This document shows positions 1 to 3,528 of a stretch of DNA of 49,172 nt, in pieces. Each line of letters begins with the position of its first letter. The stretch's first letter is position 1. The notes under the pieces were generated by a model. That model ran no database searches and was not told the origin of the DNA. It saw nothing but the letters and a program-made list of their open reading frames with translations. Source of the stretch: Rhizobium sp. Q54 (GTDB taxonomy: Bacteria > Pseudomonadota > Alphaproteobacteria > UBA828); contig CAMDDO010000012.1 in assembly GCA_945892755.1 (NCBI GenBank), positions 1-49,172 on the forward strand. The letters run 5' to 3'. Made by a program: the position numbers and the translations under genes.

Positions 1-2587
1 CGGATGAAAGCTCGTCGGCCACGTCGTCATTGGCATGGCGCTGGCCGGATTCGGCCGCGATCCCGTTCGGGTCGAGGATCATGATGACGCTGCCGTCGCC
101 GAGAATGGTATTGCCCGAGAACATCGTGATGTTCCTGAGGATCGGCGAAACCGGCTTGACCACGATTTCTTCGGTATCGAAGACGCGATCGACAATGATG
201 CCGAAATTGTATGCCCCAACCTGGGTGACCACGATGAAGGACTCGCTGGTCACGGTCGCATCGGCCGCCACCGCGACCTGCGTCTGGTCAAGATTGAGCA
301 CGTCGGCTCGGGTCGTGCCGACCACGGCCATGACCTTGGCGCTCAAATTGGCGGGGACACCCAGCTCATCGAGCGTCGATTTGAGATGCCGGGCGACCGC
401 ATCGAAATGCTTGGACTCAAGACCCTGATCGACCAGCCGCTCGTGCGCCGCCCGCATGTCGCTGCCGCGGTAGCGGTTCGGCCCGCCCAGCGCGGCCGTA
501 AAGAATGCGACTTGCTGCTTCTTGAGCCAATCGATCTTGGTATTCTCGAAGAACGGCTTGAGCATGTCGTCGGCGAGCACCTTGACGTAGAGCTTGTCGA
601 CCGCGGCCTTGACGGCCGCGCCGCCGCCGATCTGCTGATAGAGACTCTGCTCCGATGATTCGGCCATGGCGTTCTTGGGCTTGCCGCTCAGGCCAAGGGT
701 CTGGCCGAGCGAGGCAAGCGGCAGCAATCGGTTGCGCAAGCGCAACACCGGCGTGCCATTGATCACTTCGATCTTGTGCTCGGAGTCGGATTTGGTTCGG
801 ACCAGCTCGACCACGGAGATCTGCGGAATGGCGAATTTCTCGCCGCCTGCCTCGACGATCAGGGCTGAGACGATCGCCAGTGTCAGGGGAATCTTGATCG
901 TGAAAGTCGATCCCTTGCCAGCCGCGGTCGTCAGGTCGACGGTGCCGCCGATGCGCTCGATGTTGGTGCGCACCACGTCCATGCCGACGCCCCGGCCGGA
1001 CACCGCGGTGACCTGCTGCGCCGTCGAAAAGCCGGCGCGAAAAATGAACTGCAGAACTTGCTGGTCCGACATGTTCTCGGCTTCGGCTTCGCTCGCGAGC
1101 CCATTCTCGACCGCCTTGGCGCGCACGCGCTTGGTATCGATGCCGCGACCGTCGTCCGTAATCTGGATGATGATGTGGCCGCCCTCATGGAAGGCGTTGA
1201 GACGAATCTTGCCGGTCTCGGGCTTGCCGGCGGCCTTGCGCTGAGCCGGCGTCTCCAGGCCGTGATCGCCCGAATTGCGCACCATGTGGGTGAGCGGGTC
1301 CTTGATCAGCTCGAGCACCTGTCGATCGAGCTCGGTCTCCGCGCCGACCATCTCGAGGTCGATCTTTTTGTTGAGGTCATGCGCCAGCGAACGAACGATG
1401 CGCGGCAGTTTGGCCCACGCGTTGCCGATGGGCTGCATGCGCGTCTTCATCACGCCTTCCTGGAGGTCGCTCGTGATATGGCTGAGCCGCTGCAGCGGCG
1501 CCTTGAACTCGCTGTCCTCGTGCGAGCGCACCATCTGAAGCAGTTGATTGCGCGTCAACACCAACTCGCTCACCGTCGTCATCAGGTTTTCGAGCTGCTG
1601 CACGCTGACGCGGATCGACTGGTTCGCGATATTGGATTCGCCGCCTTTGTCGCCCGTGGCGTCGGTGGCGGCCTTGGGCGCGGTCTCGTCCGCCGCCGGA
1701 CTCGTCGGCGAAACACCCTCCGTCTCGGCGTCATCGTGACCTGTTGCGGTCGGCTCGAGCGCCTGGTCGGCGGCAACCGCGATTGCTTGCGCCTTGGTGC
1801 CGCCGATCGCTTCCAGAACCAGTTCGACCAGAGCCGGCGCGATATTGAGATCGCCGAGCGTGTTTTTCAGATGGTTCGTCAGCGGCGCCAACTGTGCCGC
1901 ACCGAGCTGGTCACCAACCAACAAGGGATGGCCGCCAGACGGCTCGGTGCTGGCCGGGTCTTGCGGACCGCCGAGAGCGATGGTCAGCGCGGCGCGCAGC
2001 TGCTGTTTCAACGTGCCAGCATCGCCACTGGCAAAATACGCGGAGATCGAAGCGTCTTTGAGGACCTTGGCAAAAAACAGTTCGACCGTCGCCTCGATCG
2101 CGATCGCGCCGCCGATCTGCTCGAACAGGCCGGAGACTTTGGCCGCAGGTATCGGAGCCGGGCTTGCCGGAGCCGGGCTCGCTGCTGCCGGGCTCGCTGC
2201 TGCCGCGACGCTTTCGCCCTTGGCGAGCGCGTTCAGTCGCGCGATCAGGTCGGTATCCTGACCGGCCGGTTCGGCCTCGGTCTTTTCGATGACCGCCAGA
2301 ATCTCTTTGATCTTGTCGATCGACACCAGAATCAGCGAGACCGCGTCCGAGGTAACCTGGAGCTGGCCGTCGCGGATCTTGCCGAGCACATTCTCCGCCG
2401 CGTGGGCTACCGATTCGAGGCGTGGCAGGCCGAGGAAGCCGCAGGTTCCCTTGACCGTGTGAACCAAGCGAAAAATACTTCCGATCAGCTTCGGATCGGG
2501 ATTTTGTTCGAGTTTGACCAGTTCCACGTCAAGCGTTGACAAGCTCTCGGCGCATTCGGTCAGAAATTCGCTCAGTAGATCGTCCAT
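1..2587 (-). CDS. cheA: CheA-type chemotaxis histidine kinase with two embedded truncated-haemoglobin domains (partial, C-terminus outside window)
   Basis: CheA autophosphorylates on its Hpt histidine and passes phosphate to CheY/CheB-type regulators, working with CheW and receptors. 862 codons are visible and the frame is still open at the window edge. Domains in order: P1/Hpt with phospho-acceptor His43 in LVHTVKG; an Ala/Pro linker; a group-I truncated globin at about 154-269 in the place normally held by P2; an acidic linker; P3 dimerisation from about 323; P4 kinase with N-box VRNSGDHG, DDGRGID and GVGMDVVR; and a CheW-like P5 from about 570. P5 is interrupted at 649-764 by a second truncated globin and then resumes with FGIIVDRVF and ILGDGSV. 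The ATG follows chpT on the same strand, so the two may be co-transcribed. Kinase identity is very secure. Haem binding and gas sensing are inferred from conserved residues. The residues after the usual P5 end (AAESGQRHANDD onwards) suggest a further C-terminal extension. Confidence 0.95.
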   Translation of the reverse strand, partial: MDDLLSEFLTECAESLSTLDVELVKLEQNPDPKLIGSIFRLVHTVKGTCGFLGLPRLESVAHAAENVLGKIRDGQLQVTSDAVSLILVSIDKIKEILAVIEKTEAEPAGQDTDLIARLNALAKGESVAAAASPAAASPAPASPAPIPAAKVSGLFEQIGGAIAIEATVELFFAKVLKDASISAYFASGDAGTLKQQLRAALTIALGGPQDPASTEPSGGHPLLVGDQLGAAQLAPLTNHLKNTLGDLNIAPALVELVLEAIGGTKAQAIAVAADQALEPTATGHDDAETEGVSPTSPAADETAPKAATDATGDKGGESNIANQSIRVSVQQLENLMTTVSELVLTRNQLLQMVRSHEDSEFKAPLQRLSHITSDLQEGVMKTRMQPIGNAWAKLPRIVRSLAHDLNKKIDLEMVGAETELDRQVLELIKDPLTHMVRNSGDHGLETPAQRKAAGKPETGKIRLNAFHEGGHIIIQITDDGRGIDTKRVRAKAVENGLASEAEAENMSDQQVLQFIFRAGFSTAQQVTAVSGRGVGMDVVRTNIERIGGTVDLTTAAGKGSTFTIKIPLTLAIVSALIVEAGGEKFAIPQISVVELVRTKSDSEHKIEVINGTPVLRLRNRLLPLASLGQTLGLSGKPKNAMAESSEQSLYQQIGGGAAVKAAVDKLYVKVLADDMLKPFFENTKIDWLKKQQVAFFTAALGGPNRYRGSDMRAAHERLVDQGLESKHFDAVARHLKSTLDELGVPANLSAKVMAVVGTTRADVLNLDQTQVAVAADATVTSESFIVVTQVGAYNFGIIVDRVFDTEEIVVKPVSPILRNITMFSGNTILGDGSVIMILDPNGIAAESGQRHANDDVADELSS
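296..643 (-). other. Globin-like domain 2 of CheA (residues ~649-764), canonical group-I truncated haemoglobin residues
   Basis: The segment starts LYQQIGGG and shows the full group-I trHb pattern: B10 Tyr667, PFF at 678-680 (CD1 Phe), LKKQQ with E11 Gln692, AALGGP, and proximal His715 in RAAHERL followed by HFDAVARHL. It sits inside the CheW-like P5 domain, between the strand ending LLPLASLGQTLGL and the strand FIVVTQVGAYNFG. The Tyr/Gln pair is the arrangement that stabilises bound oxygen in group-I trHbs, so haem and O2 binding are a reasonable inference. Confidence 0.88.
1781..2128 (-). other. Globin-like domain 1 of CheA (residues ~154-269), atypical distal pocket
   Basis: The segment starts LFEQIGG and runs about 116 residues, the usual size of a group-I truncated haemoglobin. 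It keeps the family's ALGGP turn and a His at residue 220. That His aligns without any gap to the proximal F8 His of globin domain 2 in the same protein. The B10 position is Phe172 instead of Tyr, and the E11 position is Leu197 instead of Gln, so the ligand pocket would be apolar. The codons for residues 172, 197 and 220 were checked on the minus strand. It is either a divergent haem sensor or a globin fold losing haem binding. Confidence 0.75.
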
Positions 2588-2865: not shown

Positions 2866-3528
2866 TCAAGGCCGAGCGGCCTGGATTTCCAGTGTCGCCG
2901 GCTTGCCTGGCGGCAGCTCCACCGCCAAGCCGAGCGCGGCGGCGAGCCGCCCCGTGTAGTAGGAATAGGCGGTTCGGGGATCGAGGCCGGGCACCCCGGC
3001 CCCATCGGCCGAAGCACCGGCAATCAGGGCCTGTTGGGCCGCCGGCTCGAAGTTGAGCCGCTGGCCATTGGCGGTCACCACGATCGCGGGCGCCGCGAGG
3101 CTGCCCTTCAGGCGCACCGTCACGCCGCCGCCGCCAATCACCGAATGACCCGCTAGGTAGGCGAAGTTGAGCGCGAGCTTGAGCAGCGATGGCCCGGCTT
3201 CGCCGGCCTGGGGCGAGAGCGAGTCGTCCCAGCTGATCGTGACCTTGGTTTCCGCCAGGACCTTCTCGATCAGGCCGTGCGCCTCTTTCGAACCCAGGGT
3301 CTGGCCCCGCCCGATGGCCGCCCTGAAGAAGCTCAATCGGTTGATCGCCTTGGCCGCGCTCTCGACGATCATTGTGCGCGAGGTCGCGAGCATGTCGGGA
3401 TCGGCTTCGTCCTCCAAGCTTTCCGCGATCATATTGAGCGCGCTGAGTGGCCCCAACAGGTCGTGACAGAGCTTGGCACCCACCAGCGAGACCAGCCGAA
3501 TATCGTCGGATTGTGCGGCGGGTTTCAT
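2866..3528 (-). CDS. chpT: Histidine phosphotransferase ChpT
   Basis: In alphaproteobacteria ChpT relays phosphate from the hybrid kinase CckA to the response regulators CtrA and CpdR. The 220-residue protein has the expected size and the diagnostic N-terminal helix KLCHDLLGPLSAL, with His22 as phospho-acceptor. After the four-helix dimerisation region comes a degenerate HATPase-like half (about 90-215, with NFAYLAG and GVPGLDPRTAYSYYTGRLA) that lacks ATP-binding boxes, as is normal for ChpT. It lies upstream of cheA on the same strand with a 278-bp gap full of inverted repeats. Position next to a chemotaxis kinase suggests cell-cycle and motility control are genetically linked here, but that link is inferred. 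Confidence 0.9.
   Translation of the reverse strand: MKPAAQSDDIRLVSLVGAKLCHDLLGPLSALNMIAESLEDEADPDMLATSRTMIVESAAKAINRLSFFRAAIGRGQTLGSKEAHGLIEKVLAETKVTISWDDSLSPQAGEAGPSLLKLALNFAYLAGHSVIGGGGVTVRLKGSLAAPAIVVTANGQRLNFEPAAQQALIAGASADGAGVPGLDPRTAYSYYTGRLAAALGLAVELPPGKPATLEIQAARP

Follow-up and report, generated by a model that had tools for sequence, protein, structure and literature searches.

The analysed window, a stretch of 49,172 nt, is one entire contig (C12) of a genome available as 117 contigs (3.27 Mb). A cheA gene is found on its minus strand, the 3' end of which is truncated by the contig end, so that the full protein is longer than the 862 aa visible. The second CheW domain and the receiver, the usual C-terminal domains, are unseen because the gene runs past the contig end. 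The following features were identified:

2..2587, minus: cheA, 862 aa visible, 3' end lost at the contig end
2258..2587, minus: P1 phosphotransfer domain (Hpt), aa 1-110 (Pfam PF01627, E 7.8e-16)
1772..2134, minus: globin A, at the P2 position, aa 152-272 (PF01152, 32.9 bits; residue columns; predicted fold)
878..1633, minus: P3 dimerisation and P4 kinase domains, aa 319-570 (Pfam; motif positions)
653..877, minus: first half of P5, aa 571-645 (split CheW Pfam match; alignment A1)
284..652, minus: globin B, inserted in P5, aa 646-768 (PF01152, 73.9 bits; residue columns; predicted fold matched to 1dly)
2..283, minus: second half of P5, aa 769-862 (PF01584 stretch 771-845)
2869..3528, minus: chpT-like histidine phosphotransferase (PF10090, E 2.4e-18), the upstream neighbour of cheA, as in relatives

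The assignment to the CheA family rests on Pfam matches to each of P1, P3, P4 and P5 (in the visible 862 aa: Hpt at 3-91, H-kinase_dim at 322-382, HATPase_c at 430-569 and two CheW stretches, next to two Bac_globin stretches) and on the catalytic motifs. The motif HTVKG (HTVKGTCG) starts at aa 43 of P1, placing there the histidine expected to be phosphorylated, and the N box HMVRNSGDHGLE and the glycine motifs DDGRGI and GRGVGMDVV of P4 are all intact, so the kinase motifs are preserved. The second half of P5 is up to ~85% identical to relatives without the insert. The preliminary description had called these four domains normal, which is right in that Pfam finds all of them, but P5 is interrupted by globin B. 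No other CheA was detected in the source assembly. The CheAs of relatives are ~900-1200 aa long and most go on to a second CheW domain and a receiver; for instance, both are present in the CheAs of G078, G003, G058, G286 and G134.

Both putative globins were confirmed as such. Scanned alone, against a Pfam cut-off of 21 bits for Bac_globin (PF01152), globin A scored 32.9 bits (E 8.3e-8) and globin B 73.9 bits (E 1.6e-20), and solved group-1 truncated haemoglobins align to both (best E 1e-10 and 1.8e-29, respectively). Structure models, predictions built from alignments A1 and A2, gave group-1 truncated haemoglobins of the 2/2 fold as the best PDB matches of both predicted globin regions in Foldseek: the C. 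eugametos haemoglobin 1dly for globin B (TM 0.95, rmsd 1.1 A) and the T. pyriformis haemoglobin 3aq5 for globin A (TM 0.84, rmsd 2.3 A). The globin helices were predicted with pLDDT values of 83-96 for the most part, and a globin A loop had a lower value; the pTM of the models was 0.53-0.54, and the placement of the domains relative to each other is unreliable. Neither segment thus lacked a globin profile match or a predicted 2-on-2 fold, and the protein is a CheA with two group-1 truncated haemoglobins within the kinase, as had been proposed from the sequence.

The position of globin B is that of an insertion and not of an appended domain, since a P5 half lies on either side of it (aa 571-645 and 771-845), and the structure model places it between strands that belong to the two halves. 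The same arrangement emerged in G078 (family f58) when the class was searched again, this time for the P5 region: its 80-kb contig encodes a complete CheA of 1,200 aa with a globin at each of these two positions, followed by the second CheW domain and the receiver. The P5 insertion is therefore not an assembly error; an assembly chimera was considered and rejected because G078 carries the insert independently and because the insert and its flanks agree in GC and GC3. Among the CheA loci fetched, a P5 globin was limited to the source genome (G000) and G078, which the CheA tree places apart. One shared origin for the two P5 globins was weakly rejected on the globin tree (AU p 0.038).

In alignment A1 the insertion point lies in a linker that varies in length and content among relatives, and non-globin inserts occur in this linker between the P5 sub-barrels elsewhere (G068, L033, L036 and L012), indicating that passengers are tolerated there. 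In the G068 CheA (L179:7436-10702) ~210 residues separate P4 from the second half of P5, with a long linker insert of at least ~140 residues in which no globin was detected on testing. In CheAs of the Desulfobacteraceae, a 50-residue insert splits the first of the CheW domains (Berry et al., PMC10782961), possibly at a comparable site.

The haem pockets of the two globins are not equivalent. Numbered by alignment to solved group-1 haemoglobins, globin B has Tyr667 at B10, Phe680 at CD1, Leu688 at E7, Gln691 at E10, Gln692 at E11 and His715 at F8; judged from these residues it keeps an HbN-like pocket with the full set of B10 Tyr, CD1 Phe, E11 Gln and F8 His. Globin A has Phe172 at B10, Leu193 at E7, Gln196 at E10, Leu197 at E11 and His220 at F8, i.e. 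it retains the proximal histidine with an apolar distal side (Phe/Leu), without the polar B10 Tyr and E11 Gln. The initial view of two truncated haemoglobins is hence correct in that both are real, but their pockets differ. We also considered a haem-dead reading of globin A, with the His of 'HFDAV' as the proximal ligand, and rejected it, as the numbering of the C. eugametos haemoglobin, GlbN and THB1 puts F8 at the His of 'MRxAH'.

The E7 Gln and E10 Lys typical of stand-alone GlbN-like relatives mostly give way to other residues in those CheA-borne globins whose pocket is intact. When the comparison is confined to globins that have both F8 His and B10 Tyr, E7 Gln was present in 2 of 13 CheA-borne versus 12 of 13 stand-alone or receptor-borne ones, and E10 Lys in 1 of 13 versus 12 of 13 (Fisher p 2e-4 and 3e-5, respectively, for rows that are not independent and with shared ancestry ignored). 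In THB1, THB2 and THB4 the sixth ligand of the haem is E10 Lys (PMC7082302), and its loss in the CheA globins is therefore consistent with an open gas site. A stand-alone group-1 GlbN-like truncated haemoglobin is also encoded in the source genome (C60). Two receptors with an N-terminal truncated globin came up in the searches, one with PAS and MCP domains (L182:2965-5829, G270) and one with a PAS domain (L181:2983-4032, G191); both keep E7 Gln and E10 Lys and belong to a known kind of globin-PAS receptor (PMC6194562).

A further finding was that a globin between P1 and P3, a site occupied by P2 or a disordered linker in other CheAs, is recurrent. In the family of the source genome, it is present in every CheA that reads across that stretch (G000, G002, G003, G007, G010 and G018); in G012 and G021 the contigs stop after P1 or the short stretch read shows no globin. 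An even sampling of alphaproteobacteria comprised 387 genomes; 177 of them gave a CheA match, and the P1-P3 globin was found in at least 21 of the genomes sampled, a count from searches that match whole segments and miss divergent cases. Pfam confirmed it in 11 families (f1, f39, f58, f81, f85, f89, f95, f97, f105, f114 and f173). This count excludes G147 and G301, where the globin is clear only by a profile trained on them and not by Pfam, and likewise G712, G627 and G649, recognised by their own profile only (a Pfam scan of G627 and G649 gave no globin match); G274 is also recognised only by its own profile, but its family is counted via G101. Pfam scans gave no globin in the CheAs of G036 and G052. 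On a CheA tree of the relatives from this search only, the P1-P3 globin needs at least seven changes, indicating a patchy distribution. The globin-bearing CheA is thus found in at least 11 families, and its double form recurs in G078. In G002, the contig seems to join cheA, inside the globin, to what read as further flagellar genes on the opposite strand (L020:2185-2370); this junction is probably an assembly chimera.

The P2-position globin is under purifying selection. Its dN/dS was 0.25 for G000/G002 (N-terminal part), 0.11 for G007/G018, 0.03 for G058/G248 and 0.03-0.39 in genus g44, estimates from close pairs with dS near saturation in several, and made for the P2-position globin only, the P5 globin having no close pair. 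A complete haem pocket is kept by globin B and by most P2-position globins in families f1, f105, f114, f85 and f58. The F8 His is displaced or lost in the CheA globins of G281, G345, G101, G274 and genus g44. In this genus (family f39; L004, L074, L076, L077 and L096) the EF region is also shortened, which makes its CheA globins candidate non-haem globins. The purifying selection in genus g44 implies that the domain is maintained even where haem binding looks lost, and the persistence of CheA globins without F8 His implies that the P2-position domain need not sense gas.

In G003, cheA is followed by cheW, cheY, cheB, cheR, a gene for a CtrA-type regulator and an open frame reading as fliI. Orthologues of cheB, cheR and fliI were not found in the source genome with a query that succeeds in G003, G286 and G078. 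An assembly gap is the simplest reason for the missing che operon, loss being the alternative; the gap is favoured since the contig stops inside cheA. With the remaining operon absent from the assembly, the signalling output is unseen. Orthologues of cheB and cheR were also not found in G002, G007 and G018, and the contigs of G007, G010 and G018, like that of the source genome, stop inside cheA. The source genome has at least one complete MCP gene and a fragment of a second; on contig C37 (L157:1-3242) a complete MCP with HAMP and PAS matches is preceded, at the contig start, by the end of a near-identical MCP. The suggestion that the kinase might respond to gas without a receptor is therefore unsupported: P5 is intact around the insert, MCP genes are present and relatives have a standard operon.

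The protein resembles several described systems in part. It shares the P1, P3, P4 and P5 core with the F5-class CheAs (R. centenum CheA1 and those of A. brasilense, C. crescentus and A. caulinodans), and its relatives at this locus have, like the described F5 CheAs, two CheW domains and a C-terminal receiver (PMC10782961); unlike the source CheA, the described F5 CheAs have no globin. The closest Azospirillum plasmid records cover only about half of the CheA query.

Globin-coupled sensors such as AfGcHK and HemAT carry a 3/3 sensor globin at the N-terminus. AfGcHK, a globin histidine kinase, and HemAT, a globin receptor, resemble our protein as globin fusions, and their activity is controlled by gas, but the globins described here are 2/2 truncated, internal, two per chain and carried by a CheA; indeed, the Protoglobin profile gave 14.5 bits on the CheA, under its cut-off of 25, and neither globin is N-terminal. 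With the group-1 truncated haemoglobins (HbN, GlbN, C. eugametos Hb and THB1) they share the fold and the Bac_globin profile, and globin B has B10 Tyr, E11 Gln and F8 His in common with them; they differ in being embedded in a kinase and, unlike the C60 haemoglobin, in having E7 Leu and no E10 Lys. Also related is the trHb-PAS-MCP receptor type (Corallococcus coralloides Cc_4972; seven such proteins were counted, PMC6194562), in which Bac_globin likewise occurs in a chemosensory protein, but on the receptor rather than on the kinase. The words 'globin' and 'heme' are absent from the text of a 2023 survey of the architectures of thousands of CheAs (PMC10782961). Searches of the openly accessible literature text turned up no CheA that carries a globin; the receptor globin (PMC6194562) comes nearest, in line with the initial remark that no characterised example is known.

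The domains and their positions, the predicted folds, the pocket residues, the recurrence and the selection on the P2-position globin are best read as gas sensing by the kinase. We put the probability at about one half (0.52) that this is an F5-like, flagellar-type CheA that gained two truncated haemoglobins as internal input domains and senses gas at the kinase. Globin B would be the likelier haem sensor of the two, going by its pocket. It would bind haem and a diatomic gas, most likely O2 and also NO or CO, and, given its location in the linker that joins the two P5 sub-barrels, to which CheW and receptors bind, its ligand state would shift the coupling of P5 to the array, altering autophosphorylation. 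Globin A is held between P1 and P3 by Ala/Pro linkers and would affect either P1 itself or the way P1 reaches P4 or CheY; it would serve as another sensor of different tuning or as a docking module. Oxygen or NO would in this way feed directly into chemotaxis at the kinase, on top of receptor input. A precedent is AfGcHK, the autophosphorylation of which is raised by O2 (PMC8697598). The stronger version, a new class of haem sensor in which CheA reads O2 or NO via two differently tuned globins, the first working on the phosphotransfer arm and the other within the domain that couples to the array, as a receptor-independent input to the array, is put forward only tentatively.

The main rival to gas sensing is a structural or docking role, in which globin A stands in for P2, either as a spacer or as a surface that binds CheY or P1, and haem is optional or lost, as it is in further globins that lack haem. 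The loss of F8 His in several lineages with selection continuing (as in G058/G248), the shortened EF region in genus g44 and the apolar distal pocket of globin A all suit such a role; we consider it rather unlikely, as a spacer has no need of the full haem pocket found in globin B and in most P2-position globins of the five families named above. Less probable still is that the globins are passengers with little effect on signalling, inserted in P1-P3 and P5 loops that accept inserts. Linkers do differ in length and content across relatives, and the long G068 gap shows no detected globin at the P5 site, but the same domain occupies the same two sites in the source genome and G078, the P2-position globin recurs in 11 families, there is purifying selection, and the E7/E10 change is specific to CheA globins. 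That the globins are NO dioxygenases that detoxify NO or O2 locally and shield the array, rather than sensors, seems very improbable: B10 Tyr and E11 Gln are common to globin B and HbN, which is known to act as an NO dioxygenase (PMC3493545), but the genome already has the C60 haemoglobin, and a kinase chain with only one or two such enzyme units would scavenge poorly.

If gas sensing at the kinase is true, it would matter in several respects. The survey cited above (PMC10782961) describes CheA as having no sensor domain and depending on receptors; this rule would change if a haem sensor were part of CheA itself, and oxygen or NO would gain a direct route into the array. Such a CheA would also be a natural probe of how P5 geometry affects kinase control, and the recurrence across families, in haem-competent and haem-lost versions, makes the question testable by comparison. 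Some bacteria may thus sense oxygen or nitric oxide by the kinase itself as well as by receptors.
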